64,000 bases of DNA from Candidatus Peregrinibacteria bacterium (GTDB lineage Bacteria; Patescibacteriota; Gracilibacteria; UBA1369; UM-FILTER-53-11), in the NCBI GenBank assembly GCA_016186205.1, contig JACPMA010000001.1, positions 62,001 through 126,000 on the forward strand. Direction: 5' to 3'. The notes under the pieces were generated by a model. The model was given only the letters and a program-made list of their open reading frames with translations, was not told where the DNA came from and did not search any database. The translations under genes and the position numbers were made by a program. Shown here piece by piece: positions 4,793-23,454 of this stretch; the first letter of the stretch is position 1, and every line of letters begins with the position of its first letter.

Positions 4793-4804
4793 AGATTTAT
4801 TTGT

Positions 4805-6910: not shown

Positions 6911-6946
6911 ATTGTTTTAGTTATTTATATTAATTTTTATCTATCT

Positions 6947-6976
6947 ATTATAGCATATAAAATAAATATAAGTCAA
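6947..6976 (-). promoter_or_regulatory. Promoter of the 701-residue surface protein
   Basis: Reading the minus strand: TTGACT (6976-6971), an 18-base spacer and TATAAT (6952-6947). The start codon is at 6910, giving a leader of about 30 bases, longer than at most promoters in this window. Confidence 0.65.
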
Positions 6977-7026
6977 ATAGTTGGCATACTGTCAACTTTG
7001 GGATTAAATTATCAAATCTACTCTGT

Positions 7027-7050
7027 AAATTTCTCCCCAGGGAGAAATTT
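7027..7050. repeat. 24-base near-perfect palindrome upstream of the surface-protein promoter
   Basis: The 11-base arms AAATTTCTCCC and GGGAGAAATTT are separated by two bases. The loop is too tight for a stable RNA hairpin, so a protein-binding site or a DNA cruciform is more likely. It lies between the vapBC terminator and the promoter at 6947-6976. Confidence 0.5.
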
Positions 7051-7056
7051 AATCCG

Positions 7057-7084
7057 AAAAAGTGTGTACGTGCGGGCACACTTT
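7057..7084 (-). terminator. Terminator after vapBC
   Basis: Read on the minus strand, 8-base arms AAAGTGTG/CACACTTT enclose a 10-base loop and run into a T-stretch. The element lies 20 bases beyond the vapC stop codon. Confidence 0.6.
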
Positions 7085-7103
7085 AAACAGCCTTTGATGC
7101 TTT

Positions 7104-7481
7104 TCATCCAGATTTCGCAAAATATTTTACCCGCGGCAGTCCTTTAAAATCTGAATCCAGAGTCCATAGCGTAGCATCGTATTTTTGGGAGGTTGCCAAA
7201 ATGACGCTGTCTGCAAAAGGGAGTTTTGTATGCATGCTAACTGCGCCGGCGCTTAACGCGATGTCTAGATCGAGATCGATGATTTTTCCGAGCTTCATGT
7301 GGGCGACAATTTTGAGAGCTGTTTCTTCGTTTTTCTCGATGAGGATTTTTTTAAAAACTTCGTAGAGAATGACGGTTGGCACCATGAGCGATTTTGTATT
7401 TTCAATGATGCGGGAAAAACGTTCGCCGTGTTTTGTGCCGGCAAAAAATTCGAGCCACGCAGAAGAATCTACGATATTCAT
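7104..7481 (-). CDS. vapC: PIN-domain toxin (VapC-like RNase)
   Basis: This 125-residue PIN domain starts MNIVDSSAW (Asp5). It contains PTVILYEVF with a central Glu, FADSVILAT with the third acidic residue and LDSDFKG with the fourth. These acidic residues bind metal in the PIN ribonuclease site. VapC toxins cut specific RNAs, often tRNA, when not held by VapB. ATG 7481 overlaps the vapB stop by 4 bases (ATGA), the usual coupled toxin-antitoxin layout. The gene is intact, so the module may be active. Confidence 0.88.
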   Translation of the reverse strand: MNIVDSSAWLEFFAGTKHGERFSRIIENTKSLMVPTVILYEVFKKILIEKNEETALKIVAHMKLGKIIDLDLDIALSAGAVSMHTKLPFADSVILATSQKYDATLWTLDSDFKGLPRVKYFAKSG

Positions 7482-7684
7482 AAACGATCTTTTTCCCGTT
7501 TTACGGTCGTATCCATTCCTTTTAGACTTCCTTTTAGAGCCGAAAGCGATTGAAGGGGAATAAGTTGAATTCGCTCGGCATATGCCACGACCTCGAATTT
7601 CATGCCGGAGGAGAGATCCAGTTCTTCACGGATCTCTTTCGGAAGGACTATCTGGAATTTCGGAGAAAGCGTTACGGTTGTCAT
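7478..7684 (-). CDS. vapB: AbrB/SpoVT-type antitoxin (VapB-like)
   Basis: This 68-residue protein has an N-terminal swapped-hairpin AbrB domain (VTLSPKFQIVLPKEIREELDL) and a basic, less ordered C-terminal tail that would wrap the toxin. Such antitoxins neutralise the partner and bind their own promoter. Two identical 10-base boxes flank and enter the promoter just upstream, consistent with autoregulation. It is the first gene of the two-gene unit with vapC. Confidence 0.85.
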   Translation of the reverse strand: MTTVTLSPKFQIVLPKEIREELDLSSGMKFEVVAYAERIQLIPLQSLSALKGSLKGMDTTVKREKDRL

Positions 7685-7694
7685 ACGATTTTAT

Positions 7695-7744
7695 TATCGA
7701 TATATATCAAGTAAAATTATACCGCTATCGATATAATTTTGCAA
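7695..7744 (-). promoter_or_regulatory. vapBC promoter with paired operator boxes
   Basis: On the minus strand, TTGCAA (7744-7739), a 17-base spacer and TATAAT (7721-7716) form the promoter. The box TATCGATATA occurs twice on the plus strand, at 7695-7704 and 7726-7735, with starts 31 bases apart (about three helical turns). One copy is in the spacer and one is between the -10 and the start codon. This is a natural antitoxin-binding arrangement. Confidence 0.65.
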
Positions 7745-7779
7745 TGCCAATTTTACACTTATGCTGGGCAATAGCGATA

Positions 7780-10746
7780 TTATCGCTTCATTTTTCGCCT
7801 CAACCACAGCCCTGCGTGCACCACGCTCAAAATTCCTAAATATACAAGAGTTTCCGGCCCAGTGTTCGCCCGTTCAGGCGCGCGCACAAGGCGTTGGCTG
7901 GCTTGAAGATCAGGCGCAGAGCCGCGCTGGTCGCCTTGAGATTGCTGGGTAACAGCGCCGGCGTTTGCAGCTCCAGTAGCAGCTGCACCGCCTGCCGTTC
8001 CAGCTTGACCGCCGCCTGCCTGCGGCAATCCTCTATCCATATTTCCCACTTTTTTCTTTTTCTTAGCTTCGCAGGTTCCGCCATTGGCAATGTATTGTTC
8101 GGTTGTGCACGCAATGCACATGCCTGTTACGCGTTCGCCTGGTTTCGGCGGACCGGTGTATGTTTTGAGTCCTTGCTGTTCGCACGTTTGTCCGGGTGGA
8201 GGTAGTTGCGCTACCGTAATCGCCACAGTTCGTGTAACAGTTCCTTCGGCATTCGTGGCAGATAGGGTATACGTGGTATCGGTTGTTGGACTCACTGTTC
8301 TAGAGCCGGTGCCTTGAATATTCCCAATTCCTTGGTCAATGTTCATCGTTGTCGCACCAGTCACCGTCCATGTCAGTGTGGTTGATTGGCCTTTGTTGAT
8401 GGATGCAGGAGCTGCTTGAAATGTTACTTGTGGAGCAGCCGGCTGCGCTACCGCAATCGCCACTGTCCTTGTAATGGTTCCTCCGGCATTCGTGGCAGAG
8501 AGTATATATGTGGTATCAGTCGTTGGACTTACTGTTCGCGATCCGGTGCCTTGAATATTCCCGATTCCTTGGTCAATGTTCATGGTTGTCGCGCCGGTCA
8601 CAGTCCACGTCAGTGTGGTCGATTGGCCTTTGTTGATGGACGCGGGAGCTGCCTGAAAAGTTGCAGCCGGAGCATTCGGCGGATCTTCGTGCATTGTGAA
8701 TTCCGGCACGGCTATATTGAGATTCGTTTGATTCCCGTCGCCCGGTTCAAATTCCACACTCTTTACCACATATTTTATTTTCTTTCCGTTGTCGCCAGCA
8801 GAGCCGTTGATTTTTGCATAAAGTGTCAGGCTTTGGTTGCGCGTATCGCCGATGACGCTCACCGGAGTGACGGTTTGGAATACTGCTTCAATAGTTCCAT
8901 TTGTGCTGTTTTTGCTTAAAATGATGAGGTCTTTGCCTGTCGCGCCTAGCGTGAACTCGCTGGAATCGCCGCGGAAAAGATGCAGATCGCTAATTTTGCT
9001 TATTTCCAAAGGATTATCCGCAGTTTGATATTCAAGCACAATGCGCTTGAGTCTTGTGAGCATAGGCTCGCCGCCGCTCTGCGAAATATTTAGCGTTGCG
9101 AGTTTAACGGTTTGATTCGCCGCAGCTGGAATTTGTTCGCTTTGCCCTGCTGGCCGAGAGGCGGTGACTGTTACGCTCGGCGGAGGCGGAGTTGTAAAAT
9201 TGAAGTAGACCTTAGCGCCATCCGTACCGGTACATGAGATACTTGCGGCAGTTTGAGGGTTGCACCAAGAAGTTTCTTTGTTGCCATTATTCACATGTAC
9301 GAACCAGCGATAGCTCTGGCCGTATTGCAAAACGCCCGTTGGTATTTGGAGTTCAGTGCATGTCCAAGGATTATCAAGGCCTGGCACAATAGCATTTGTA
9401 GGGCATTTTCTCGGGAAATTTGGCGGTGCTGTATTGCCAGGACCTCCATCCACCCAGTTGTATTCTCTTCGAAGAATAGCAGCAGGCGGATTAATATTCA
9501 TATCGTCTATTTCCCAACGAAAATGAAATTGTTTTGAACCTACTTCAATCCCATTCGTATTCCATCGAAGCACCGGCGTGAGCGTGTTAATCGTGCTGTT
9601 ATCAGCAGGTTCTGTTTTATTTGCTTGCGGAAGATCATTTGAAGCAATGACAACGGCTGGCGCCGCTATAGTAAATTCATTTCCATAGATCGGAAATGAA
9701 CCGCTTACGGTCGAACCAGCTGCCGTGACATCGGCTACAGCAGCAATACCGAGTTTTACTTTATTGCCGACAGCGGCAGGTTGCGCAATATTTACTTTCA
9801 GCGTGAGTGTTTTTATAATTCCAGTATTCATATGTATTGGAAGATTCGTGAAGGTCGCGATATTATTTGAGAATGCAGCTGTCCCTATTGTATTGGCGCC
9901 TTCGTAGAGACTTGTTGAAGTAACATCGGTAGCTACCCCCATTCCACTGCGTGTTACTTTTATTTGAGTGATGTTTATATCACCGCCAGCTGCAACAAAT
10001 TTTAGCTTAGTTATATCTTGATCTATCGCTCCTTGTTCGACAGATCTGGTTTGTGGAGTCAAAGGATCAATAGATACAGTAAGAGTAGCGTTTGGCGGTG
10101 CAGGCGGTGCCGCCGCGACCTCAAAAGTTTTTTCATCGCAATTGTTATTTTCATTTGATTCGGTTACGCCAAACGTGGCATCGGCGCATATTTTAAATTT
10201 GCTAGGTCCAGGCACAGCTGTCCATTTATTTGAGAATGTTGCTGTAGCGAATGCTGAAGTCGCAATGGAACTTATTGGAATCGTCCAAATGTTCGATGAT
10301 TCATAACTGTTGTTGTTTCCTTGGTCAATTCGTAAACGCGCCATTGATCCGACTGCGTTAGCATTACCATTATTGAATATTCTTGCTGAAAAAGTAGGCT
10401 GACTTCCTGCAGCTGGATTTGCCGGAGAGACACTCATATCGGCCGAGTTTATTCTAAGATCCGGTTTTGGGGTAAGATCGGTCATTTCATACGCTCCGGC
10501 CACGCATTGAAAACCGACTACATGACATCTGTCTAAATGTAAAAGACATAGATTCTGTGTATAAGAACTGCACGCAGGCTGGTATTGAACCGCCCCTGCT
10601 AAATCATCTGCTATGTCTTGGTCGAGCATGACAATACCTTTAAACAGGGTTGTTTTTTTGTTTAGAAATACAGCCAGTCCGCCTGCTAAAGAGAGCGTGA
10701 TGAAAAAAATAATTATCCAGATTTTTGTTTTCTTTTTTGGGTCCAT
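7780..10746 (-). CDS. Large anchored surface protein with CARDB-like and tandem Ig-like modules
   Basis: The protein has 988 residues. An N-terminal membrane helix (about 8-30) is followed by KKTTLFKG. A CARDB-like stretch begins near PDLRINSADMSVSP and contains NNGNANAVG. Several beta-sandwich regions follow, then two 79-residue repeats (INKGQSTTLTWTVTGATT) that are almost identical. A Cys module (CEQQGLKTYTG, then GMCIAC) and a Gly/Ala linker precede a C-terminal ANTGPE motif, a membrane helix and a basic tail. The Cys module and the N-terminus match those of the 177-residue protein just upstream. Last gene of the pilin/PKD operon (23-base gap). An extracellular adhesion or structural role is inferred. 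Confidence 0.7.
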   Translation of the reverse strand: MDPKKKTKIWIIIFFITLSLAGGLAVFLNKKTTLFKGIVMLDQDIADDLAGAVQYQPACSSYTQNLCLLHLDRCHVVGFQCVAGAYEMTDLTPKPDLRINSADMSVSPANPAAGSQPTFSARIFNNGNANAVGSMARLRIDQGNNNSYESSNIWTIPISSIATSAFATATFSNKWTAVPGPSKFKICADATFGVTESNENNNCDEKTFEVAAAPPAPPNATLTVSIDPLTPQTRSVEQGAIDQDITKLKFVAAGGDINITQIKVTRSGMGVATDVTSTSLYEGANTIGTAAFSNNIATFTNLPIHMNTGIIKTLTLKVNIAQPAAVGNKVKLGIAAVADVTAAGSTVSGSFPIYGNEFTIAAPAVVIASNDLPQANKTEPADNSTINTLTPVLRWNTNGIEVGSKQFHFRWEIDDMNINPPAAILRREYNWVDGGPGNTAPPNFPRKCPTNAIVPGLDNPWTCTELQIPTGVLQYGQSYRWFVHVNNGNKETSWCNPQTAASISCTGTDGAKVYFNFTTPPPPSVTVTASRPAGQSEQIPAAANQTVKLATLNISQSGGEPMLTRLKRIVLEYQTADNPLEISKISDLHLFRGDSSEFTLGATGKDLIILSKNSTNGTIEAVFQTVTPVSVIGDTRNQSLTLYAKINGSAGDNGKKIKYVVKSVEFEPGDGNQTNLNIAVPEFTMHEDPPNAPAATFQAAPASINKGQSTTLTWTVTGATTMNIDQGIGNIQGTGSRTVSPTTDTTYILSATNAGGTITRTVAIAVAQPAAPQVTFQAAPASINKGQSTTLTWTVTGATTMNIDQGIGNIQGTGSRTVSPTTDTTYTLSATNAEGTVTRTVAITVAQLPPPGQTCEQQGLKTYTGPPKPGERVTGMCIACTTEQYIANGGTCEAKKKKKVGNMDRGLPQAGGGQAGTAGGAAATGAANAGAVTQQSQGDQRGSAPDLQASQRLVRAPERANTGPETLVYLGILSVVHAGLWLRRKMKR
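8208..8681 (-). repeat. Two tandem 237-base repeats inside the 988-residue protein gene
   Basis: Units 8208-8444 and 8445-8681 are in phase and encode 79 residues each. Their proteins differ at only a few positions, so the duplication is recent or kept uniform by recombination. Expansion or contraction would add or remove one Ig-like module without shifting the frame. Confidence 0.8.
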
Positions 10747-10747
10747 A

Positions 10748-10772
10748 AGCCGAGCAGCAGCGAGGCTGATTA
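10748..10772. repeat. Dispersed GCCGAGC...GCGAGGC repeat, copy 1
   Basis: AGCCGAGCAGCAGCGAGGCT fills almost the whole gap between the stop of the 177-residue gene and the start of the 988-residue gene. Related copies lie near 24371, 27617, 33737 and 41520. Confidence 0.5.
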
Positions 10773-11303
10773 ATTACATTTTTCCCCATTTGATGCGAAC
10801 TGCGTGGTGAGGCAGTCAATGCACATTCCGTATAAGAGTCCGGGCCGATCTTCGCCTGTATAAGTAAAGCGGCCTTGGGATTCGCATGAGGGTTGAGCGT
10901 CAAGGACTTTTATTTTTAGCGCAGGAATGTTGTTTTGGACGCTGACTACCGGCGTGTTTTCTTTTGAGCAGCCGGCGATTTGCGAATTTTTTATGATGGG
11001 TTTTTCGTTGGCGCCACATGGCGAAACAACTGGTTCAAAAGTTTGTTGCTCTTGAAGAGGCGCTTCGGCGGCTGGTTTTATTTCTGCCTGTACGGGGGGT
11101 AGAGCTATTTGTGCAGACGACAAAGCCGGCTGTGCCGACCATTCTTCAGCGGTCAGCACCGACGCTTTTGCAAAATTCCATTGAAGCGGTTCCAAGCCTT
11201 TATAGAGCGTTTTTTTCTGCGCAAAAAAAGAGGCTGCGCCGGATGCAACCATAAGCGTTCCTACAAATACGAAAAGCCAAGTTTTTATATTTTTGTCCCG
11301 CAT
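10770..11303 (-). CDS. Small membrane-anchored paralog of the 988-residue surface protein
   Basis: The protein has 177 residues: a membrane helix at about 8-28, then KKTLYKG, a low-complexity middle and a C-terminal Cys module (CESQGRFTYTG, then GMCIDC and EKC). The N-terminal tail and the Cys module are clearly related to those of the neighbouring 988-residue protein, without its long beta-sandwich region or its C-terminal anchor. It may be a minimal version made of the anchor and terminal module. It lies 11 bases after the 35-residue gene in the same operon. Function unknown. Confidence 0.65.
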   Translation of the reverse strand: MRDKNIKTWLFVFVGTLMVASGAASFFAQKKTLYKGLEPLQWNFAKASVLTAEEWSAQPALSSAQIALPPVQAEIKPAAEAPLQEQQTFEPVVSPCGANEKPIIKNSQIAGCSKENTPVVSVQNNIPALKIKVLDAQPSCESQGRFTYTGEDRPGLLYGMCIDCLTTQFASNGEKCN

Positions 11304-11314
11304 GTATTTTTATT

Positions 11315-11422
11315 TTAATAATTCAGCGTTGCGACGAACGGGAGGGCGATGCCAAGTAAGAGCCCGAGTATGAGGAGCACTGCAAGTCCAGTCATGATGC
11401 GTTTTTGGGTTTTTTGTGTCAT
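11315..11422 (-). CDS. 35-residue single-pass membrane peptide
   Basis: A short frame starts at ATG 11422 and stops at TAA 11317-11315. It reads MTQKTQKRIMTGL, then a continuous hydrophobic stretch (AVLLILGLLLGIALPFV) and a polar end. The basic start and single helix are what a real small membrane protein looks like. It fits neatly between the PKD gene (15-base gap) and the 177-residue gene (11-base gap), with no other coding in that space. Small accessory subunit or stabilising peptide; no family recognised. Confidence 0.6.
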   Translation of the reverse strand: MTQKTQKRIMTGLAVLLILGLLLGIALPFVATLNY

Positions 11423-11437
11423 ATAAATGTAAGTGTT

Positions 11438-13579
11438 TTATTTAGCTTCGACGGTGATTTTTCCAGTGAAAGTATCAACCACATTTTGCGTGTCCGCGAC
11501 TTCTAAACTAATGTCGTATGCGCCGGGATCCTTAAATTCAAATTTCGGTTTACGGTCTGTGCTTCGACCCAAATTTGCAAAATTCCATCGATATTTTACC
11601 ACTGTTCCGGTTGAGCACGTCGGGTCGAATTGAACTTCAAGCGGCGCTTTTCCGCTACTCACGCTCGGCTCAAAACAGGCTTTCACAGGCACTGGCCGCA
11701 CGTTGATAGAAACCTGCGCGGCTGCGCGTTTATTATCTTGCGTGATCGCCGTGACTTTTGCGGTAAAAGTTCCGACAGCAGTGTATTGATAAGAAACTTT
11801 CGAGGCGTCGGTCCGCGGAGGAGCGCCGTCTCCAAAATCCCATTCAAAATTTACAATCCTTCCCTCCGGATAACTTGAACCGGAAGCATCAAACTTCACC
11901 GTAAGCGGCACAACGCCGGAAACCGGTTCAGCCGCAATATCTGCACGCAGTCCGGCCGCATCCACTTTCACGACAACCTGCGCTTTTGCGAAAAGGTCAT
12001 CCGAATCCGTGACTGTGAGCGAAACATTAAAATTTCCAGCTGTTAAAAATTTGTGCGAAGTGACTGCATTTGCATCGTCGGTTTTTCCGTCGCCATCAAA
12101 ATCCCAAGCGTATTCCACGATGTCATCATTCGCATCTTGGCTTGCTGAAGCATCAAAAATTACATCGAACGGCGCTTGTCCGCTAACCACGCCATTCGCG
12201 GGCTGCGGAGTTGTTTTGAGCGAGGGGAGAGGAGCTTGCGCAGGCGCTTTCACCTTGAAGCGTTTCGTAACTTGGCCCTGTTTCTTGCTTGAATCAGTGA
12301 CTGTTAAAACAACATCATAGTCACCAGCCTCTTTATATATATGGGTCGCGCTGCGAGTGGCGGCTTTTCCATTGTCGCCGAAATCCCAGGTGTATTTTTC
12401 GATTTTTCCGGTCGGGCTTGTGGATGAAGCGCCGCTGAAAACATATGGTTTATTAAGCTCGAGTTCGTCGCCTTCCACACCTTCAACGGTGATGGCGGGA
12501 ACCGGCGTATCCGGCACAGTGACTTCAATTTCAATGGAATTTGTTGCAAGCGCGCCCGTGGAATCAGTTACACGCAAACTAACTTTATACGTCCCGACTT
12601 TTTCGTAGATATATGTCGCAGTCGCTTCATCGCCATCATCAAAAGTTCCGTCTTCATCCAAATCCCACGCGTACGCCGTAATTTCGCCATTCGGCGACTT
12701 GGAATCCGATCCGTCAAAATCAACTGCGAGCGGAGCCACTCCTTTTTGAGGATCTGCTTTTATAAGCACATCCGCTGTTTTATTTTGAATTGTGACGTCG
12801 CGCGTGAATTCCACGGTTTGCTCTTTTTGAGTTGTTTTTTCTTTGAGCGTGATCGTGAGTTTCACTTTGAAATTTCCGAGGTCCGTGAACGTGTGCGTTT
12901 GAGGATTTCCGCGCGCCGTTGCGCCATCGTCAAAATTCCAGTCGTAGCTCAAAATATCGAAAGTTTTTTTATTCACCGACGCTTTGCTGGCGTCGAATTT
13001 CACGGTGATTGGCGCAGTCAGGCCGGTGGTTTTCACAGGTTCAGTGATGATTGGAGTTTTTATCGCCGTCGTTCGTTTTGGCGCTAAGAAAAAGTAGGCG
13101 AAGATCCAAATAAATATGAGAAGTATCATGATTGCCAGTGCGCCGAATGTGAACATGGTGCCTTTGCGCCTGGCGTCTTTGTCGTCTTTTCTGGCAGTCG
13201 TGATTTTGAAAATGCCGATGACGACGAATATGAACGCGGCGAAAACCAGTACGAGGAAAATAAGGTTTACGATCGTAATTAGTACGTTGACCACTTCTCC
13301 TGGCGGCACGCCCAGAAATCCAAAAATCGGATTGTCTGTGGAGCCGAACGCAAGGAATGCGAAAAGCACGCCGACGAATAGCAAAAGCGAACAACCGAAT
13401 GCTGAAATGCAGCCGATGACCAGTTTTTTGTTGGATTTTGATTGGTCTTTTGGCAATGCGACGGCAACGCCGGCCGGTTTTTGCGGTTGCGCTGCAGCAG
13501 ATGGAGCTGGCGCAGGAGCAGGCGGCTGCGTTGGCGTCGGACTATTTGGTTTTGGTTGTTGTGGTATTTGGTTATCCAT
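11438..13579 (-). CDS. PKD-repeat surface rod with three N-terminal membrane helices
   Basis: The protein has 713 residues. A Pro/Ala/Gln-rich cytoplasmic start (1-45) is followed by three membrane helices (about 51-77, 90-118 and 135-162). Six PKD-type beta-sandwich domains follow, recognised by WNFDDG, WDLDEDG, WDFGDNG, WDFDGDG, WDFGDG and RWNFANLG at about 85-residue intervals. There is no C-terminal anchor. PKD domains are typical of extracellular stalks and adhesins, so the rod should project from the membrane. The gene begins 6 bases after the giant pilin-PKD gene and is clearly co-transcribed with it. Confidence 0.8.
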   Translation of the reverse strand: MDNQIPQQPKPNSPTPTQPPAPAPAPSAAAQPQKPAGVAVALPKDQSKSNKKLVIGCISAFGCSLLLFVGVLFAFLAFGSTDNPIFGFLGVPPGEVVNVLITIVNLIFLVLVFAAFIFVVIGIFKITTARKDDKDARRKGTMFTFGALAIMILLIFIWIFAYFFLAPKRTTAIKTPIITEPVKTTGLTAPITVKFDASKASVNKKTFDILSYDWNFDDGATARGNPQTHTFTDLGNFKVKLTITLKEKTTQKEQTVEFTRDVTIQNKTADVLIKADPQKGVAPLAVDFDGSDSKSPNGEITAYAWDLDEDGTFDDGDEATATYIYEKVGTYKVSLRVTDSTGALATNSIEIEVTVPDTPVPAITVEGVEGDELELNKPYVFSGASSTSPTGKIEKYTWDFGDNGKAATRSATHIYKEAGDYDVVLTVTDSSKKQGQVTKRFKVKAPAQAPLPSLKTTPQPANGVVSGQAPFDVIFDASASQDANDDIVEYAWDFDGDGKTDDANAVTSHKFLTAGNFNVSLTVTDSDDLFAKAQVVVKVDAAGLRADIAAEPVSGVVPLTVKFDASGSSYPEGRIVNFEWDFGDGAPPRTDASKVSYQYTAVGTFTAKVTAITQDNKRAAAQVSINVRPVPVKACFEPSVSSGKAPLEVQFDPTCSTGTVVKYRWNFANLGRSTDRKPKFEFKDPGAYDISLEVADTQNVVDTFTGKITVEAK

Positions 13580-13585
13580 AATTTT

Positions 13586-16500
13586 TTAATGAGTTCGACG
13601 TTTGCCGCGTCTGAAGTAACCGGCAGCTCCGGAACCTATTAATACTACTATAACGCCGGCAATGAGACTTAGTAAAATTGTGTTTTGTGTTCCGAGATTT
13701 TTGAAAAGTGAAGCCGAGCCTGTGGAAGACGGCGGATTGCCGTTGCAATCGTTGCCGGAAAGCACTTCGTCCGGTCTTGTAACCCCGTCAAAAACAACTT
13801 CAATATCTTTATTGCTATACTTATTTATAGGATCGTTCGCATCTTCCACGCGCAAACGAGACATAAAGTGCCCCGGACCGGACGGAGAGGCTGTAGTTTT
13901 CGCACGTCTTTTATATTGCGTTGTAAAACAGTTATCTGCCGGATTGCCGGTTGATGCGACCTTGCATCCTGTCGGCGTGTTGAGCTGTTTATCATAATCT
14001 GAAAGCGTATTCCATTTGTTATCCCAGTCGTTTGTGCGATCGCCGTCGCCGTCAGAATCACACCAGATGTTTTTATCAATTTTATACCCGCTGATATTTC
14101 CGGTTGATTCTCCGTAGAAAAAGGTGACGGTCTCCGCTTCAGGCGAAGTCGGCGGAGATCCAGCAACCGGAATATGAAGCGTGTCTGTTTTTACGCACGT
14201 TACAGAACTTGCAGGCCGGCAATTCGCCCTTTCCGCTTTCAAAACCGCATTCAAAATATCCGCGTTCGGACGTCTTGCTCCGCCTGTTCCTGCAACAGCG
14301 CCCGGCGTGAGCTCTACAAACGATTTCGCTTCAGCTGTATTTCCATCGCTGTCTTCCACGGTAAGTTGCACTTGCACCCGCCCGACTTCTCCCTGCGGAT
14401 ACGTGAAAGTCGGATTTTGGTCAGTGGAATCTATGTCATTGGTTTTTGATTCATCGCAATATGACGGTTTTTCGGTTCCAGCCGGCACATCGCAGCCGTA
14501 TTGCTTGGCGGTATTAAAGTCCCAGCTCCATTTTATTAGCTGTGCGTTGTTCGCGCTGTCTGGCCTTGATTGATCAAAACAATTCACTTTGAGCGGATTA
14601 TCCGGCGCAACTTGGCATGCGAATTGCACTGTCGGCGGATTGGAATTTGCAGAAACAACCACAGGAATCGCTTTGGAAAATCCTGCAGCGCCTTTGTCGT
14701 CAACCGCTTTTAGCTTCACGAGATAGCCCGCGCCTCTGCTCTGCCGCGCATACGCATGCTGAACCGTGGCTTCTTGCGTCGGTTGATCGTCCTGGAATCC
14801 GTTGCCGTCAAAATCCCATATATATTGCGCAATCGGTTTTCCTTCAGGATCCGTGACATTCGCCGTGAAAGTTACGGTTTCATTCATTCTCACTTGGTTT
14901 TTATCAATGGTGAAGTCCACAGTCGGCGGTTTGTTCGGTCCGTTTTTCACTTTTATTTTCGGAAGTTCTTCTTCTTGGAACAATTCGCGGCATTCAGAAG
15001 TCGTATTTTCATTGTCCGTGACAGTCACGCAGAAAATGTATTCGTGTTCTTCACCCTCTTCGCCTTTTGTTTCAATCGTGATGGCTGCAAAATTGTTTTC
15101 TTTGCCATATGTGGTGACCGGCGAAAGTTGGAGATCCGCCTCTGCCGGATCGTAATACCAGAATTGATAGCTCTGAATATTGCCGTCCTCATCAGACGCG
15201 CCTTCGGCTGTGACTTTTATTTCCACCGGTGTTTCATTTCCGGCGCTCGTTTTTTCAATCGCGAGCGTATTTACTTGCGGTTTTTTGCTGATTACATTTA
15301 CAAGCAGAGTCATTTGATTTGTTTTAGTCGCATCGTCTTTATCCGCAACCTTGAGCGTTACGCGATACGGCCCGGTTTCCGGCGAAACGTTTTCATAGCT
15401 GTGCTGTGTGTTTTTATCCGTGTTTTTGCTTCCGTCCCCGAAATCCCAACTGTATGTAAGCAAGGGTTGATTTTTTGCGCCGAAAGCTCGCCCTTTTGAA
15501 TCAAGCGAATTTGCCGCGCTGAATTTGATGGTTTTTCTACGGATAATTTCGAGCGCATCTGTCGTCGGATCCGTCAGCACGACCGGCATATTATCCACAG
15601 ACGCTTCAATAACCGCGAGCGGAGCATCACCGCCGCGCACATAGATTCTATGAGTGATTGTATTTTCTCCATTCCCGGACTCTGAAGACGCTGTGAAAGT
15701 GACGAGAAACGATTTTGCCTCTGCGTAATTATGCAAAGATTCAAATGATTTGTTTGTTGCAAGTTCTGGTTCATCGGTATTTCCGTCGCCAAAATCAATC
15801 AAAAGTCTGTCAGCATTCAGCGCTTTTCCTTTGAATGTAAATGTAGCTTCTGGAGTCGCTCCTTCGCTTTCCGCAACAAGGCTCGCTGTAACAGGCGGAT
15901 TTGCGTCAAGAGTTACAAAAACCGTGGAAGTGATATTCACTTCTTTTGTCCGAATATCGCTTTGCTGAATTTCCGGCGGTTCTTTGTCCACAGCCGTCAG
16001 CTGGATTTGATATTTTCCTGTTTTTGGAAATTCGATTTTAATGACTTTATCGTTGACCGTTTTGCTTTCGAGAATTTGATAGCTTTGTTCGGGAGTTAAT
16101 TCATTTCCCTTATCATCAAATACGGTCCATGTGTAATTCATGGCATCGGATTTTAAGCCGGGTTCATCCGGATCAAGGCTCGGGCTTGCGTCCAATTCAA
16201 CAATATTCGGAGCGCGAGTGCCGGGACAATTTTCCGGACACATGCGCATGAAGAAATTTGCGCGGGGTTTTCTTGATTTTACAAAGAATATTGCTTCGTC
16301 GTCTTTAGGTCCGGAGCCGTCGCTCACCGTAAGCGTGACTCTATAGCTCCCCGGCTTTTTGAACCGCGCCCGCAAAGTCGGACTCGTTTTATTTCCGATG
16401 AGATTTACGACAGCGGTATTATCGGTTACGAGCGTAGAGTTATTGTCTTTAAGCTGGGCAATCTTCCATTCGTAGGAAGAAATTGCTCCTTTGTCGCTTC

Positions 16501-18457
16501 TGGAAGTTGAACCGTCAAATTCCACAAGTTCTTCAGGTTCGCTTTCTTGTTTAGAGACTACGATGCGGGCTGCCAAAGAACCGACGGAAACATCGAGGAA
16601 TTTCCGATCCTTGCTGTTGCCGCTTGCCGTTACTTCCAGCTGAAGCCGATATTTTCCTTCATTTTTGTATTCATGTTTTACTACAGCGGTTTTATCCGTT
16701 CCGCTGCCGTCGCCGTATGTCCATTGATAGGCTTCAATTGATCCGCCTCCGCCGGATTCGCTTTTTGAAGCGTCGAATTCAATTCCGTCTCCCTGCACCG
16801 CTTCGGTTTTAGTCACTTGCAATGTGTTTTTATCAAGGTCGAGTTTCCATTTTTTTGTTTCAGGGTCCTGTACGTATTTTCGAATTTCATGAATTGTATC
16901 TCCCACTTTTGCCGTGAGAGCGATTCTGGCAACCGGCGGATGTATCGTGATCGGCAAGAAAGCCTGTCCTGTTGCCACGCGCGAAGGATCCTGGCTTGGA
17001 ATTTTGAGCCGCACAATATATGTGCCCGGCTGGTTGTATGTGCAGAAAATCGTCGGGCCTACTAAGCCCGGTTTGCATTCAGAAGTGTTTGCTTGGTTAT
17101 TTCCCAGCGGATCCCATGTATATTGATCATCGGCAATAGTGGCGCCTGTTGGATCGCGCGAACCCAAACCTTCCAATTTCACGATAAGCGGCGCATTGCC
17201 TTCACGCGGTGTGGCTTTTATTCTTACTTCAACGAATTCAATATTTTTTATGATGATAAAAAGCCGATCAAGCGCACGCACAACATTAACGACTTTTTGC
17301 GTGTCAGGCGTGTCTGCTGTCGCGAGTTCTTTTGCCGCTTTGAGGCTATCGTGTACTTCTTGAAAAATATCTTTCAGGGTTGCAGTCGGGCTGATGCCGG
17401 AAAATGCACGCTGAAGATCTTTTTCAGAAATCAGGCCGCGATTGATTAAATCACCAGCTTGTGTTGTAGCAATTTCGCCAAGAACGTCTTTGACGATCAT
17501 GAGTTTACCTTTTTGTTTTGCATCTTCGCTAATTAGTCCGTCAATAACGTCCGTAAAATCAGCTTTGTAAGCTGTTTTAATTCCAGATGCATCAAAGGCA
17601 TCCATAAAAATACCTTTCAGATATCCATTTTCGTACTTTTCATCGTTGAGGTCAGCATTCGAAAGTTCAGCAAGTTTTCCATTGAGTAATGCTTGAGCCG
17701 CCACATGCGTTTTACTCAAAGAATTCGTGCTGTTTTTTATTTGGTTGACCGTTTCCGTTACTGCGGAAAGGTATCTGCGGTTATTTGCTTCGCGAGGGTC
17801 ATCACCAGGTTTCGGAAGGCTTGTGATTTTGGAAATGAGTCCGTTCATGGTTACAAGATTTTTGTACGCTCCGATAAAATCATTAAGACTCCCGCTTAAA
17901 GCTTCTGCTGCCAAATTGTAAATGGTTTGCTGGCTGATATTTGTTCCTTCTTCGCTGCCGAGATTGGAATCCGCTGATCCGCGTCCACCGCGGTCTCCTT
18001 CTTTGCCTCCGCCAAATGTCAAAAGCGTGTTTACAAGGGCAAAAGAGCCGATGATAATCAAAATTCCGATCACAGCATATGTGATGGTTTTTTTGCCTTT
18101 TCCAGATTGTTCTTCATTTCCTGCGGCTGTGACATAGAGAAAACCTCCATACACGACAATCGCCATGGCGATGACGCCAAGAAACATGAGCGCGAAATTC
18201 ACTGTGTTTACGATAAATTCCCGAAGCGTTTTTGAGCGTTGCAGGCTTTCATCCAAGCCTTCTCCTGTTGGCGCTGAAAGTCCGCCTTCAAATCCGATGA
18301 AACTTACAACGTCATCGCCTTCGCCGCAATCAAGCTGCGCCCAGCTCGGCGACCAGTCATTTATGTCCTCGCATACTTCTGCAGCCGAGGCGACCGGTAC
18401 AGATACAAAAAGGCTGAAAAACAGAATACTTGCGGCTAGAATGGAGATTTTTTTCAT
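13586..18457 (-). CDS. Giant protein fusing a VirB2-like pilin module to a PKD rod
   Basis: The protein has 1623 residues. A signal peptide ends near ASAAEVC (about 1-27). A two-helix T4SS pilin-like module follows at about 85-150, recognised by VVYGGFLYVTAAGNEEQSGK and KKTITYAVIGI. A helical spacer comes next, then about nine to ten PKD or PKD-like domains (YTWDPLG, WTYGDG, WDFGDG, WDFDGNG and others). A membrane helix and a basic tail (RRGKRR) end the protein. The fusion places a pilin-type membrane module at the base of a very long extracellular rod anchored at both ends. The gene lies between the triple-pilin genes and the second PKD gene. A structural or adhesive role is inferred. Confidence 0.8.
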   Translation of the reverse strand: MKKISILAASILFFSLFVSVPVASAAEVCEDINDWSPSWAQLDCGEGDDVVSFIGFEGGLSAPTGEGLDESLQRSKTLREFIVNTVNFALMFLGVIAMAIVVYGGFLYVTAAGNEEQSGKGKKTITYAVIGILIIIGSFALVNTLLTFGGGKEGDRGGRGSADSNLGSEEGTNISQQTIYNLAAEALSGSLNDFIGAYKNLVTMNGLISKITSLPKPGDDPREANNRRYLSAVTETVNQIKNSTNSLSKTHVAAQALLNGKLAELSNADLNDEKYENGYLKGIFMDAFDASGIKTAYKADFTDVIDGLISEDAKQKGKLMIVKDVLGEIATTQAGDLINRGLISEKDLQRAFSGISPTATLKDIFQEVHDSLKAAKELATADTPDTQKVVNVVRALDRLFIIIKNIEFVEVRIKATPREGNAPLIVKLEGLGSRDPTGATIADDQYTWDPLGNNQANTSECKPGLVGPTIFCTYNQPGTYIVRLKIPSQDPSRVATGQAFLPITIHPPVARIALTAKVGDTIHEIRKYVQDPETKKWKLDLDKNTLQVTKTEAVQGDGIEFDASKSESGGGGSIEAYQWTYGDGSGTDKTAVVKHEYKNEGKYRLQLEVTASGNSKDRKFLDVSVGSLAARIVVSKQESEPEELVEFDGSTSRSDKGAISSYEWKIAQLKDNNSTLVTDNTAVVNLIGNKTSPTLRARFKKPGSYRVTLTVSDGSGPKDDEAIFFVKSRKPRANFFMRMCPENCPGTRAPNIVELDASPSLDPDEPGLKSDAMNYTWTVFDDKGNELTPEQSYQILESKTVNDKVIKIEFPKTGKYQIQLTAVDKEPPEIQQSDIRTKEVNITSTVFVTLDANPPVTASLVAESEGATPEATFTFKGKALNADRLLIDFGDGNTDEPELATNKSFESLHNYAEAKSFLVTFTASSESGNGENTITHRIYVRGGDAPLAVIEASVDNMPVVLTDPTTDALEIIRRKTIKFSAANSLDSKGRAFGAKNQPLLTYSWDFGDGSKNTDKNTQHSYENVSPETGPYRVTLKVADKDDATKTNQMTLLVNVISKKPQVNTLAIEKTSAGNETPVEIKVTAEGASDEDGNIQSYQFWYYDPAEADLQLSPVTTYGKENNFAAITIETKGEEGEEHEYIFCVTVTDNENTTSECRELFQEEELPKIKVKNGPNKPPTVDFTIDKNQVRMNETVTFTANVTDPEGKPIAQYIWDFDGNGFQDDQPTQEATVQHAYARQSRGAGYLVKLKAVDDKGAAGFSKAIPVVVSANSNPPTVQFACQVAPDNPLKVNCFDQSRPDSANNAQLIKWSWDFNTAKQYGCDVPAGTEKPSYCDESKTNDIDSTDQNPTFTYPQGEVGRVQVQLTVEDSDGNTAEAKSFVELTPGAVAGTGGARRPNADILNAVLKAERANCRPASSVTCVKTDTLHIPVAGSPPTSPEAETVTFFYGESTGNISGYKIDKNIWCDSDGDGDRTNDWDNKWNTLSDYDKQLNTPTGCKVASTGNPADNCFTTQYKRRAKTTASPSGPGHFMSRLRVEDANDPINKYSNKDIEVVFDGVTRPDEVLSGNDCNGNPPSSTGSASLFKNLGTQNTILLSLIAGVIVVLIGSGAAGYFRRGKRRTH

Positions 18458-18502
18458 ATTGGTTTTGATTTAGGTTCCTTAATTTAATCTATAAATTATA
18501 CG

Positions 18503-19498
18503 CTATTTTGCCCCTCCAGGCAAGCCGGGGACACGACCAGGGAGATTGATTTGTCGGCCGGCACCTGGGCTAAAGCTGGTTAAGGTCGTCACAATGCCGA
18601 ATGCCGCAAAGGCGATCAATATGCCGATTACGGCGCCAATTATGATTTTTTTCGCTTTGCCTGTTTGTTCTTCATTACCTGCGGAAACCACATAAAGATA
18701 TCCGCCGTAAAAAAGCATGGCAAAAGCGGCCGCGCCGATGAATGCCGAAATGAAATTCGTGAAGTTGTAAACGAGTTTTTGCGCGGCCGCGACGTCAATG
18801 CCTTTCAATCCGCCTTCCGGAAACACGATGCCTTTGACGACAAATTCGCCTACAGCGGCAAGAATTAATCCGATAATCGCCATGGTAATGCGTTTTTTCT
18901 GTTTATTTATGGATTCTTCTTCGCCGTACGAAGTTACGAGTCTGAAAGCGGAAAGCACGAGCACAAATATTGCCACAGTTGCGAGCACGGATAGAATGAG
19001 CGAGTAAATGCCTTTAATCAGGCTTCCGCCGACTTTCGCGCATTCGGCAGCGTTCGTTGCGCTTGCGATACATTCGCCGTAATCGCCGAAAAACACTTTG
19101 GTGACGAGTTCATCCGCGGTGATAATCATTATGAGCCCGTAGATGATAAATTTGAGATTTTCTTTTTCTTTTTCCGACACCTCGTCGATTTTCTTTCCGG
19201 CAGCTATGAGTTTTATGCCGCTGACGATGACGAAAATCACCGCAATGCCGCCGATGAGATATTTCGCAAAATCAAGCACATAAAAAATGACTGATGTAAT
19301 CACATCCGCGCCGGGATCAACAGCGGAAAGCTGATGATACGTGCCTTCGAATTTATTCAACCCGGTTTTGTCTCCGCCCACGATTTCATCAAGGATTGCG
19401 TTTGGATCCTGCGCAATGGTGATGTTCATCACGCCAAGCGCGCCGAGCATAAAGCTCGCCAGCATCATCACGGTCAAGAACGATAAAATATTTTTCAT
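18503..19498 (-). CDS. Triple VirB2/TrbC-like pilin-module membrane protein
   Basis: A 331-residue protein with an N-terminal signal-like helix. Three copies of a two-helix module follow at about 60-130, 155-225 and 245-318. Each has a helix ending in a short loop of the type (A/S)xGxEE or AAGKK, a Lys-rich turn, then a second helix starting near IIG. The third copy (SAGNEEQTGKAKK) is the most typical of T4SS pilins; the first two are more diverged. Single modules of this kind are common in CPR genomes, but triple fusions are unusual. ATG 19498 overlaps the preceding stop by 4 bases. No VirB4, VirB6 or VirD4 gene is present in the window. Confidence 0.78.
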   Translation of the reverse strand: MKNILSFLTVMMLASFMLGALGVMNITIAQDPNAILDEIVGGDKTGLNKFEGTYHQLSAVDPGADVITSVIFYVLDFAKYLIGGIAVIFVIVSGIKLIAAGKKIDEVSEKEKENLKFIIYGLIMIITADELVTKVFFGDYGECIASATNAAECAKVGGSLIKGIYSLILSVLATVAIFVLVLSAFRLVTSYGEEESINKQKKRITMAIIGLILAAVGEFVVKGIVFPEGGLKGIDVAAAQKLVYNFTNFISAFIGAAAFAMLFYGGYLYVVSAGNEEQTGKAKKIIIGAVIGILIAFAAFGIVTTLTSFSPGAGRQINLPGRVPGLPGGAK

Positions 19499-20457
19499 AA
19501 GCCTTCAAACTGACGCGACACAAACGTGCTCACGATCGCAAACGCGCCGTAAATAATAATAATTCCGATGGCAGACCACATGATGATTTTTTTTGCCTTG
19601 CCGATTTTTTCCTCTTCCCCTCCGGCAAGAATATACATAAGCCCTCCTGCCACAAGCGAAAGAAGCGCAAAAGGTCCGGCAATCGCAGCCACAATATTCG
19701 TTGCTCCTGCAATTTCTTGTGCGAGTCTTACGCGGTCAATGGCAGGGCGCACCGGATCTATGCCTGGATAATTGCCTGTGTTGATTTTGAAAAACACTTT
19801 GTTGATGATTGGATTTGACATGAGAATTACGACTAAACCGAGCAGTCCGTAGAAAATATTTTTTTTGTCTTTCGTGACTTCTTCTTCAACGCCGCCAAGG
19901 AGCACGAGCCGCAGTCCGCTGCGCACCACAAAAAGCACGGCCACAGAGCCGATGATGTATTTAATGAATGTGATTACAATTTCAACAGTGCGATTAAAGA
20001 GCCGGCTTTTTTGAATCGCAACATTCGGATCTTTCAAAAATCCTCCGCGATCGACTTCCAAGATTGTCGCGATTTCACCGGCAAGACCGACGAAAAACAA
20101 CCCAATGATCGCATAAACCAAAGTTTGGCTTTGCTTTGTAAAAACCTCTTCATTTCCTCCTGCAGTGACGAGTTTTAATCCTGCAACGACGATCATAACA
20201 ACCGCCACAGCGCCTATGATGACGCGCACGTTATTCACAATTTTCCCAGCAAGATTTTGAACTATTTGTTTGCTTGTATCTCCTTCCGGACACGGAAATC
20301 CGCCTACTCCGCAAATGCCTTCCGGAACCGGCAAATATGAGGCGCCGGCCTGCGCAAGCGTTCCTATAATGACCGATATCAGGAGAACCGGCAAAAAGAT
20401 CAGAAAATCTTTGAGAATCCCAAATTTGTAATTTGAGCTTTGGGTTTGATTGGTCAT
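19495..20457 (-). CDS. Triple VirB2/TrbC-like pilin-module membrane protein, first gene of the operon
   Basis: A 320-residue paralog of the next gene. After an N-terminal helix (about 15-37), three pilin-like modules occur at about 55-120, 150-222 and 245-315, marked by TAGGNEEVFTK, LGGVEEEVTKDKK and AGGEEEKIGKAKK. Again the last copy is the most canonical. The pattern suggests one ancestral triplication, then gene duplication. An extended -10 promoter lies 33 bases upstream, so this gene opens a transcription unit of about 12.7 kb that runs to 7780. Pore, scaffold or surface-filament base are all possible; the sequence does not decide. Confidence 0.78.
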   Translation of the reverse strand: MTNQTQSSNYKFGILKDFLIFLPVLLISVIIGTLAQAGASYLPVPEGICGVGGFPCPEGDTSKQIVQNLAGKIVNNVRVIIGAVAVVMIVVAGLKLVTAGGNEEVFTKQSQTLVYAIIGLFFVGLAGEIATILEVDRGGFLKDPNVAIQKSRLFNRTVEIVITFIKYIIGSVAVLFVVRSGLRLVLLGGVEEEVTKDKKNIFYGLLGLVVILMSNPIINKVFFKINTGNYPGIDPVRPAIDRVRLAQEIAGATNIVAAIAGPFALLSLVAGGLMYILAGGEEEKIGKAKKIIMWSAIGIIIIYGAFAIVSTFVSRQFEGL

Positions 20458-20489
20458 TTGGATTTTAGTATTGGTAATTTAATCTTATT

Positions 20490-20518
20490 AGTATACCAGA
20501 AAATTCTCTTGCGAGAAA
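20490..20518 (-). promoter_or_regulatory. Promoter of the pilin/PKD operon
   Basis: On the minus strand, TGGTATACT (20498-20490) is an extended -10, with a weak -35 (TTTCTC, 20518-20513) 17 bases upstream. A 14-base direct repeat, GGTAATTTAATCTT, lies on either side (20473-20486 and 20530-20543), 57 bases apart. It could bind a regulator acting on this operon, on the divergent secE, or on both. Confidence 0.5.
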
Positions 20519-20584
20519 GGGGAACATACGGTAATTTAATCTTTGGGTTGCCCGCCTTTTTAGGATAAAACTTTCATTCACTGT

Positions 20585-20785
20585 ATGGCTTTCAATAAAA
20601 TCAAACAATACTTCCTCGATAGCTTGCAAGAGCTCGGAAAAGTTACATGGCCAACCAAGCACCGTGCAGTAAATATTTGTATTCTTGTGGTGAGTTTTGT
20701 TGTTATTTCCGCCGCCGTGATCGCGGCCGTTGATTTTGTTTTGAATCGGGGTTACGCCTATCTCCTTACCCTCGCCGCCAATTGA
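20585..20785 (+). CDS. secE: Preprotein translocase subunit SecE
   Basis: The protein has 66 residues. The amphipathic N-terminal helix contains ELGKVTWPTK, the hallmark of bacterial SecE, and one membrane helix follows (about 29-52). SecE clamps SecY in the translocation channel. The position directly before nusG is the conserved bacterial order. It is short but of normal length for a single-helix SecE. Confidence 0.93.
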   Translation: MAFNKIKQYFLDSLQELGKVTWPTKHRAVNICILVVSFVVISAAVIAAVDFVLNRGYAYLLTLAAN

Positions 20786-20792
20786 GTGATAT

Positions 20793-20829
20793 AACCCTTT
20801 AACCCTCGCCCCTAAACCCTAAACCCTCA
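20793..20829 (+). repeat. Telomere-like CCCT(A/C)AA heptamer tract between secE and nusG
   Basis: The gap carries degenerate heptamers (AACCCTT, AACCCTC, CCTAAACCCTAAACCCTC) directly upstream of the nusG start. Related tracts are at 21612, 30425 and 41300. Confidence 0.65.
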
Positions 20830-20836
20830 TCTCTCC

Positions 20837-21382
20837 ATGCCAAAGCAGGCCCCAGGTACCGGTCGTCACTGGTACGTTATACACACCTATTCCGGATATG
20901 AAGATGCTGTTCGCGAAGCGCTTCTGCAGCGCATTGAATCCACAAGCATGCAGGATTTTATTTTCGACGTGGTTGTGCCGAAAGAAAGCCAGATTGTGAT
21001 TAAAAAAGGCCAGCCAAAGGAAGAGAAGAAAAAACTTTTTCCCGGCTATGTTTTGGTTGATATGATCGTGACGGATGATTCATGGTATGTGGTTCGAAAT
21101 ACGCCAAATGTGACCGGTTTTGTCGGCTCCGGAACGATTCCGGTTCCTGTTTCCGCAGAAGAATGGAAAGTGGTGAAAGGCAGAATGGGCGCTCTGGAAA
21201 CGAAATTCAAAGTTGATTTCCAAAAGGGCGATAATGTAATTGTGCTTGACGGTCCGTTTGTGAATTACGACGGCTTGGTGAGCAGCGTGGATGAAGAAAA
21301 AGGAAAAGTGAAAGTGATGATTACGATCTTTGGCCGCGAAACTCCCGTGGAGCTCGATTTCACACAAGTGAAGAAAAAATAA
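20837..21382 (+). CDS. nusG: Transcription termination/antitermination factor NusG
   Basis: The protein has 181 residues. The NGN domain starts with WYVIHTYSGYEDAVREAL, and KLFPGYVLVDM and NTPNVTGFVG follow. A C-terminal KOW domain contains FQKGDNVIVLDGPF and the linker DEEKGKVKVMI. NusG binds RNA polymerase and couples it with Rho or ribosomal protein S10. Length and motifs are complete. It lies between secE and an inserted unknown gene, ahead of rplK and rplA. Confidence 0.95.
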   Translation: MPKQAPGTGRHWYVIHTYSGYEDAVREALLQRIESTSMQDFIFDVVVPKESQIVIKKGQPKEEKKKLFPGYVLVDMIVTDDSWYVVRNTPNVTGFVGSGTIPVPVSAEEWKVVKGRMGALETKFKVDFQKGDNVIVLDGPFVNYDGLVSSVDEEKGKVKVMITIFGRETPVELDFTQVKKK

Positions 21383-21392
21383 AAGGCCTTTT

Positions 21393-22094
21393 ATGAATAA
21401 GTTCACGATCTTCACCGTGATCCTTGCGGTTTCCGTCATCACCGTGACGGTGGATTTGGGTCTGCGTGATTATTTTGATAAAAACAGCGAAGCGAGCGTG
21501 CTGATGGAGGATGATACAGAGGATAGCGAGCAGAAAAATGAACGGGAAGCGAATAGCAGCAATTCGGCTTCAATTTCGGATTCCGTTGTGATGTCCGATT
21601 CTTCAGGCGAATCAACCCTCAACCCTCAACCCTCAATCCTCAATCCTCAAGTTTACACCCCTCCTCCGCCAGCTTCTTCCATAGTCCAAGCAAAAATTTC
21701 CGAAGCCGGTTTTACAGGCCAGCTTGCGGAAAAACAGTTTAACGGAAGGGTTTTTCAGCTACTTGATATTACGAAAAATCCGGTAGATGCCATGAGTTTT
21801 TATGAGATTACGGAAAATGGCGCGCCGGCCGTCTCCATAACAGAAATAGTGCTTCGAGATGAGATTCGTGCATTGCAACTCTATGTTCTCTTGCAAAATA
21901 AGACAAAACCGTATATAGATTTAACGCTCAACGAAACAAATGCGTACGGAGATCGGTCGTTCTATATTAACCACGCTAAAAAAACAGACGAAGCGTTTCT
22001 CACGGTGAAGATAGGGAATCGTTTATACGCGTTTGCCTACGTGAAGGCATATCACTCCTCGATCAAGAAATTCATACAGCTACTTACTTCTTAA
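21393..22094 (+). CDS. Hypothetical membrane-anchored protein inserted between nusG and rplK
   Basis: The protein has 233 residues. One membrane helix at about 5-25 is followed by an acidic, Ser/Asn-rich spacer. A repeat-derived peptide ([13 protein letters not shown]) is encoded by CAACCCT heptamers at 21612-21650. The C-terminal globular domain (about 100-233) resembles nothing I can name. Its start lies 10 bases after the nusG stop, and rplK follows 25 bases after its end, so it is probably co-transcribed with the translation genes. The heptamer tract codes for a flexible linker without breaking the frame. Confidence 0.6.
21612..21650 (+). repeat. CAACCCT heptamer tract inside the 233-residue gene
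   Basis: Five heptamers (ATCAACC, CTCAACC, CTCAATC and similar) are read in frame as a Leu-Asn-Pro-Gln-rich linker. The same units are found at 20793, 30425 and 41300. Confidence 0.7.
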
Positions 22095-22119
22095 TAAAAC
22101 GCTCACTGCGTTCGCGTGG

Positions 22120-22545: not shown

Positions 22546-22554
22546 AAGTTTTTT

Positions 22555-23268: not shown

Positions 23269-23269
23269 T

Positions 23270-23365: not shown

Positions 23366-23454
23366 CAATATTTGTACGTTTAATTCCACTCCATTTTGTG
23401 GACTTTATTTCTGCTGGCTATTATTATATGAGTGTATACTTATAATATAATTCT

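Follow-up and report, generated by a model that had tools for sequence, protein, structure and literature searches.

The DNA analysed here, hereafter the window, is a stretch of 64,000 nucleotides from a Candidatus Peregrinibacteria genome (GCA_016186205.1, contig JACPMA010000001.1, positions 62,001 to 126,000 of the forward strand), which agrees with the Candidate Phyla Radiation (CPR) host proposed in a preliminary description made from the letters alone. At 7780-20457 the window carries an operon of seven minus-strand genes, A to G, in which hairpin modules related to the VirB2-type pilins of type IV secretion systems (T4SS) are fused several to a protein and are followed by two proteins with rods of PKD domains. 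An open reading frame (ORF) check confirmed all seven successive ORFs and their coordinates, as well as the claim that no gap exceeds 45 bases: A overlaps B by 4 bases, and the further gaps are 45 (B-C), 6 (C-D), 15 (D-E), 11 (E-F) and 23 bases (F-G). The genes and their parts are listed below; the module hidden Markov model (HMM) was built from the modules of the window together with orthologous modules.

19495..20457, minus strand: gene A, 320 amino acids (aa), hydrophobic segment at the N-terminus, probably a signal peptide, then three pilin-type hairpins
20062..20268, minus strand: A hairpin 1, residues 64-132, module HMM 2.3e-24
19786..20001, minus strand: A hairpin 2, residues 153-224, module HMM 5.2e-29
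19516..19725, minus strand: A hairpin 3, residues 245-314, module HMM 1.6e-27, with ordinary pilins in the tree
18503..19498, minus strand: gene B, 331 aa, three hairpins behind a probable signal peptide
19085..19309, minus strand: B hairpin 1, residues 64-138, module HMM 4.8e-23
18818..19030, minus strand: B hairpin 2, residues 157-227, module HMM 1.4e-23
18578..18793, minus strand: B hairpin 3, residues 236-307, module HMM 2.5e-27, with ordinary pilins in the tree
13586..18457, minus strand: gene C, 1623 aa, with a signal peptide, a single hairpin, a helical domain, about ten PKD domains and a C-terminal membrane helix
18020..18232, minus strand: C hairpin, residues 76-146, T4SS_pilin 1.3e-6, module HMM 1.3e-27
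17243..17932, minus strand: C helical domain, residues 176-405, between the hairpin and the first PKD domain, a block in the AlphaFold2 (AF2) model with a predicted local distance difference test (pLDDT) score of up to 96
14309..17221, minus strand: C PKD rod, residues 413-1383, Pfam PKD_4 1e-53 and PKD 2.5e-40, ten HMM matches, some weak
11438..13579, minus strand: gene D, 713 aa, N-terminus rich in proline, then a single membrane helix, a hairpin that is probable and diverged, and six PKD domains, PKD_4 1e-82
13118..13294, minus strand: probable eighth hairpin, in D, residues 96-154, module HMM 4.8e-4
11447..13033, minus strand: D six-PKD rod, residues 183-711, six HMM matches, each below 1e-22
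11315..11422, minus strand: gene E, 35-aa single-helix membrane peptide
10770..11303, minus strand: gene F, 177 aa, anchored, cysteine motif in common with G, accessory
7780..10746, minus strand: gene G, 988 aa, anchored, CARDB 1.9e-13, TGP-type C-terminal tail, accessory

The single promoter that had been proposed at the front of the operon was not found. The promoter scan gave no sigma-70-type site upstream of A and placed one promoter-like site over the end of B and the B-C gap; the scan overall performed no better than on shuffled sequences, and a single transcript is neither shown nor excluded. No RNA family was detected in 4500-23500.

The Pfam search showed that the T4SS_pilin profile, with a curated cut-off of 26.6 bits, matched three stretches of A (E 7.8e-25, 87.2 bits), three stretches of B (E 5.8e-23, 81.2 bits) and one stretch of C (E 1.3e-6, 28.8 bits). 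The Pfam TrbC/VirB2 profile also matched A (E 2.8e-8), and NCBIfam NF045849 matched B with 47 bits, above its 40-bit cut-off, while A and C stayed below it. In profile-profile comparison, in which each module was entered as an alignment of 16-20 orthologues, every pair of the seven modules reached a probability of 94-99.8%, and the column-shuffled or reversed controls, made from the alignment of a hairpin in D, reached 9% at most. Given the Pfam matches and these pairwise values against the controls, the module repeat is not due to chance, and on sequence grounds all seven modules are relatives of T4SS_pilin and homologous to each other. The modules matched pilin profiles and one another, on which the preliminary description stood or fell, and the covalent joining of VirB2-like modules that it had claimed was recovered as three T4SS_pilin stretches in A and three in B. 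VirB2 polymer subunits are small secreted proteins of one module, whereas A and B hold three modules each and C holds one on 1623 aa. A hydrophobic N-terminus and an AxA-like site after the first helix were seen by eye in most A orthologues.

A further hairpin, with a charged turn, lies in D at residues ~88-172 directly before the PKD domains. In the window protein it stayed below the curated cut-off of Pfam T4SS_pilin; the module HMM gave 4.8e-4 for it and 1.2e-6 for the orthologue in locus L065. With 36 orthologues aligned, hhalign against the C module yielded a probability of up to 78%, compared with 6% at most for the reversed alignment, and among 15 D orthologues the hairpin was weakly matched by NF045849 in seven and by T4SS_pilin in three. 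These results suggested that D probably carries a diverged eighth hairpin, so that the module count would become 3+3+1+1. The earlier count of seven pilin-like modules in the order 3+3+1 stands as far as those seven match the profiles and one another, but it probably misses the one in D. Several other matches on D were set aside: MMCAP2_0566, which would point to Mycoplasma conjugation systems, appeared in one of the 15 members; MSC_0624, of Mycoplasma F1-like systems (7/15 members, best 1.5e-7), probably reflects membrane-helix composition; and "Polycystin" (TIGR00864), far below its cut-off, corresponds to the PKD repeats only.

Both C and D matched PKD profiles, in agreement with the two PKD rods described before, with six domains in D and about ten in C by Pfam and HMM. 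Six PKD domains were present in 37 of 38 D orthologues, and five in the remaining one; across these 38 the D ectodomain had a median of 535 residues with a standard deviation of 14. Three or four membrane helices precede the PKD domains in D orthologues. In C orthologues the PKD number ranged from five to twelve. If one PKD domain contributes the textbook value of 3.5-4 nm, the six-PKD rod of D would measure about 20-25 nm. D orthologues are without a tip domain, and the window D ends within two residues after its last PKD match; Pfam recognised neither an adhesive tip domain nor a wall-binding domain in C or D. An assignment of C or D to the CPR pilus protein PamR (NF058578) was rejected, as C scored 23.4 and D 28.8 bits over short PKD stretches, far under the equivalog cut-off of 300 bits. 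Near the distal end of C, residues ~1458-1480 (14018-14086) form a conserved IDKNI(Y/W)xDxDGDGxxxND stretch that resembles a calcium-binding loop.

A protein match to A was found in all 59 genomes searched, all of the window's order; in five of them the best match was weaker than 1e-35, partly owing to contig breaks or to single modules. The named relatives are mostly Candidatus Peregrinibacteria, among which are Peribacteria and records with the label Gracilibacteria. A first survey of 20 loci showed the order A-B-C-D, divergent from secE-nusG(-rplK), wherever the contig reaches, with one or two genes inserted into A-B-C-D in a few of them. In a second survey of 34 named loci, which overlaps in part with the first, A-B-C was kept in 33 (A is broken in L135, and L134 differs), D was present in 25, the others except L134 ending before D, and secE, nusG or rplK lay divergently upstream in 29, the remainder being four short contigs and L134. 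The mean identity to the window proteins within the order was 39.7% for A, 38.8% for B, 36.3% for D and 30.8% for C, compared with 42.7% for SecE and 78.7% for NusG. The conserved core is A-B-C-D beside the divergent secE-nusG, and the genes stay together in relatives, which answers the synteny question of the preliminary description. Its seven-gene unit held in part: A-D are conserved in order, but E is patchy and F and G are specific to the family. The near-constant length of D and a conservation slightly below that of SecE argue, at the level of sequence comparison, against a simple fast-evolving adhesin. A mobile-element origin was also rejected: plasmids yielded no relative of A, and in viral contigs none could be confirmed. 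The operon was also seen on two contigs (L113 and L117; JAUVQE010000008 and JAUVQE010000050) of a genome with the label Nitrospirota; they resemble Peregrinibacteria contigs and seem to come from a bin that is mixed or mislabelled.

Hairpin numbers in A and B were found to be matched. Among 63 adjacent multi-hairpin gene pairs, 61 were 3+3, one was 4+4 and one was 2+3 with a broken A, that is, the numbers were equal in 62 of the 63, suggesting that A and B pack against each other. The 4+4 family includes four more genomes with complete 4+4 pairs and a fifth cut by the contig end; in this family A and B grew together. Its loci (L138, L192-L195) have two one-hairpin proteins without PKD match in the place of C, preceded by a further membrane or soluble gene of ~390-420 aa, and D still has six PKD domains.

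A tree of 164 modules placed the first and second hairpins of A and B in one group (support 0.995) and A3, B3, C and single pilins in the other, with A3 and B3 as sisters (0.98); single pilins across the phylum mostly match module 3. Since hairpins 1-2 of A and B form a clade of their own apart from pilins, they are not interchangeable pilin copies. The order deep within the groups is uncertain because the sequences have only ~70 residues. Outside the order, A-B triple pairs occur in several lineages of the class, some near tuf, and multi-hairpin proteins seemed rare beyond it in a phylum sample of 380 genomes in which only the best loci were opened. Loci of other CPR classes (L149, L150, L151 and L152) have paired one-hairpin proteins, one of them giant (~1800-3300 aa), and the ectodomains of these proteins are Ig-like (Big_5), TIG, laminin-G or VWA.

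Genes E, F and G are outside the conserved core. The 35-residue membrane peptide E is real, as claimed, with a comparable peptide directly 3' of D in nine relatives and a remnant in L054; its distribution is patchy. The relatedness proposed for F and G was also upheld by a common cysteine motif (51% over 39 residues, 1e-9) and by N-termini that resemble each other. Both are family-specific, except for a single short match to F. Pfam recognised a CARDB domain and no PKD domain in G. A TGPxxLIY-type motif, a membrane helix and a basic tail end both G and the next downstream protein, H (701 aa, 4805-6910), and the same TGP-type tail was observed in proteins downstream of D in several relatives (L052, L053, L060, L063, L132). 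A DNA pattern for this tail matched only G and H in the whole genome, indicating that it is not a general sorting signal there.

Structure prediction with AF2 from 44 sequences gave for A an N-terminal helix followed by three helix pairs (62-98/103-133, 144-186/191-222 and 242-277/282-318), with helices of 31-43 residues and turns of ~4 residues; a PDB profile search with A found nothing. The N-terminus of C was predicted as a hairpin plus the helical domain 176-405, confident in parts, and Foldseek gave no PDB fold match for it at E <=0.001; its weak PDB profile matches to coiled coils and helical bundles were read as composition and dismissed. Two long helices with a short charged turn were predicted in A and in the N-terminus of C alike.

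Other T4SS parts were found dispersed in the same genome. Eight further pilin modules, of which five form a cluster on contig 9, lie outside the operon's contig, and these separate modules might supply an ordinary pilus. PrgI (VirB3) is encoded on contig 8, unlinked to the operon, and was present in five of six other genomes. A VirB4-like gene lies on the operon's own contig, ~57 kb from A and outside the window; VirB4-like matches were obtained in nine of ten genomes of the order, and G001, which has the operon, gave none. In the five other genomes whose surroundings were read, the VirB4-like gene adjoins gyrA, with no pilin module near it; the loci recorded for this gene of the order, beside gyrA and away from other recognisable T4SS genes, are L160 (13642-15816) and L163-L167, and PrgI is encoded at a different place. 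Pfam gave no TrbL/VirB6 match in five genomes, a model that may miss CPR VirB6, and no search in the genome was aimed at VirB8 or VirD4. The claim that no VirB4, VirB6, VirB8 or VirD4 is near thus fits the window, but VirB4-like and PrgI genes exist elsewhere in the genome.

We propose that A-D form one cytoplasmic-membrane complex of VirB2-type descent, a permanent platform built from pilin hairpins and not a filament, which would carry a fixed-length D rod and a variable C rod and act as a core envelope machine with a contact role, a reading that we put just short of an even chance. A and B would be Sec-targeted, each with three long hairpins whose termini lie outside and whose short charged turns lie inside. 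C and D may dock through one hairpin each with their rods pointing outward, D as a fixed six-domain rod and C as a longer and variable one, and the platform would hold these rods where they cross the wall or S-layer. Possible partners of the platform would be the VirB4 and PrgI genes found dispersed in the genome; E, F and G and the tailed proteins downstream in relatives would be lineage-specific additions, and contact with partners could fall to the C rod, which varies, and to F and G, which are family-specific. Such a machine would belong to the core of Peregrinibacteria, most likely for contact with other cells, and adhesion, uptake or transport would be candidate activities of the A-D complex. 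The constant D rod together with the near-SecE conservation fits a core machine acting over a set distance better than a host-specific adhesin. Several points weigh against this platform. The hairpin of D is below firm significance in most orthologues, the AF2 model of A has moderate confidence (pLDDT 77.5, predicted template modelling score 0.57) and no fold match at E <=0.001 by Foldseek against PDB, and the 4+4 co-expansion is one evolutionary event in one family. In two genomes outside the order (G102, G291) A-B lies apart from C-D, and so there may be two complexes. In principle, modules that are fused and have their termini outside might still be built into a filament.

Other explanations were weighed against the same evidence. 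Possible, though rather doubtful, is a trans-envelope machine of an undescribed kind, core to Peregrinibacteria and largely shared by the class, in which T4SS pilin hairpins, covalently fused, would make up a matched A-B heteromer as membrane hub or channel, and the six-PKD rod would be the length ruler of the envelope. A composite pilus, in which A, B and C, perhaps with single pilins, co-polymerise into a VirB4-driven T4SS-type pilus with covalent linking fixing the subunit order and PKD rods as decoration or tip, would suit the true VirB2 kinship of the modules, the AxA-like site, the frequent VirB4-like and PrgI genes of the order and the essential pilin arrays of Saccharibacteria (PMC10633639). 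It seems unlikely, given that no T4SS gene adjoins the operon, that the VirB4-like gene stands alone by gyrA and TrbL/VirB6 gave no Pfam match in the five genomes examined for each, that hairpins 1-2 have diverged from pilins, and that a filament could hardly accommodate the large rods of C and D at each subunit. We consider improbable, too, a structural anchor that fastens the membrane to the wall or S-layer, D being the ruler that sets the distance between them, and that has no direct role with other cells; it would account for the near-constant six-PKD D and the presence beside secE-nusG in nearly all genomes of the order, but the variable C rod and the lineage-specific F and G would be superfluous for a pure spacer, and C and D have no wall-binding domain recognised by Pfam. 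That a dispersed T4SS uses A and B in place of VirB6, as its membrane channel or platform, with the rods guiding contact, is decidedly improbable: the scattered T4SS parts and the missing TrbL/VirB6 matches speak for it, but Pfam TrbL may overlook CPR VirB6, for which a survey used other profiles (PMC12102498), no physical link between A/B and VirB4 is known, and G001 has the operon and no VirB4-like match. Simple surface adhesins, with pilin hairpins as a merely convenient anchor for C and D and with A and B as separate membrane proteins, have parallels in the one-hairpin proteins with Ig-like, TIG, laminin-G or VWA ectodomains of other CPR classes and in the PKD and T4SS-pilin proteins among the highly expressed surface genes of other Patescibacteria (PMC10936435). 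They would leave unexplained the two number-matched hairpin-only proteins, the close linkage of these two to C and D and the constant six PKD domains of D, and we regard them as very improbable.

Among known systems, the VirB2-like pilin arrays of Patescibacteria T4SS (PMC12102498; SEML1_0006-0019 of Saccharibacteria, PMC10633639) share the Pfam families T4SS_pilin and TrbC/VirB2 and the CPR host, and likewise encode several divergent pilin units side by side. They consist of 2-11 separate one-module genes, near virB4 in 1135 assemblies (PMC12102498), whereas in the operon, which is not close to virB4, the modules are fused as 3+3+1(+1) and linked to PKD rods; the text of PMC12102498 mentions neither PKD nor fused pilin modules. 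The pilin subunits of one T4SS of Saccharibacteria are reported to be essential (PMC10633639), in other Patescibacteria, which live on methanogens, T4SS pilins and PKD proteins are reported among the signal-peptide genes with high expression (PMC10936435), and large extracellular proteins have been noted in Peribacteria (PMC4736985). The pilin-like family NF045849 of Mycoplasma integrative and conjugative elements (Mbov_0395/MMCAP2_0565) resembles B above its cut-off, but it is a one-module family of 80 profile positions from conjugative elements, and the operon is chromosomal and vertically placed. PKD/Ig fibrillar adhesins (PMC9210967) also have a long surface stalk of repeated domains; D differs in having no tip domain, a probable pilin-hairpin anchor, a fixed repeat number and no fast divergence. 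The giant Ig-like proteins of loci L149-L152 share one N-terminal T4SS_pilin hairpin, a long ectodomain and the arrangement in two adjoining genes, but no multi-hairpin A/B partners were seen there and the ectodomains have Big_5, TIG and laminin-G rather than PKD domains. In the proteolipids of V-type ATPases, oligomer hairpins are covalently joined in some lineages, which is a functional analogy only; the operon has no ATPase. No published description of fused VirB2 modules with PKD rods was found in openly licensed full text.

Some other genes of the window were also recorded. A VapC-like PIN toxin with an AbrB/MazE-type antitoxin (7104-7684) lies between the operon and the 701-aa gene. Judged from sequence, 1895-4305 encodes the flavoprotein and iron-sulphur subunits of a succinate dehydrogenase or fumarate reductase, unusual in a CPR genome, and 30688-32730 encodes a 680-aa protein with a long C-terminal proline-glycine-alanine repeat (PGPAPGPAP). 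Related proteins at 43532-44191 and 52788-53573, and at 7621-7998 of L048, start with (Y)xxGLL(T/A/V)(T/S)DGxLSKDxRHI and resemble LAGLIDADG-type homing endonucleases; by eye, some of them seem to run into tRNA genes at their ends.

Peregrinibacteria are very small uncultured bacteria, and genes that nearly all of them carry together, at a constant position of the chromosome, are a strong candidate for core machinery of the surface. The finding extends further than the preliminary description had it, and the A-D set is probably a core component of the Peregrinibacteria cell surface, perhaps serving a dispersed T4SS. The platform reading predicts that A and B keep equal hairpin numbers and that the D rod keeps its length. 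The operon further shows that the pilin hairpin, normally the subunit of a polymer, can be fused into membrane proteins of fixed size. Since other CPR classes have similar hairpin-anchored giants, the principle may hold widely across the CPR, a large share of the diversity of bacteria.

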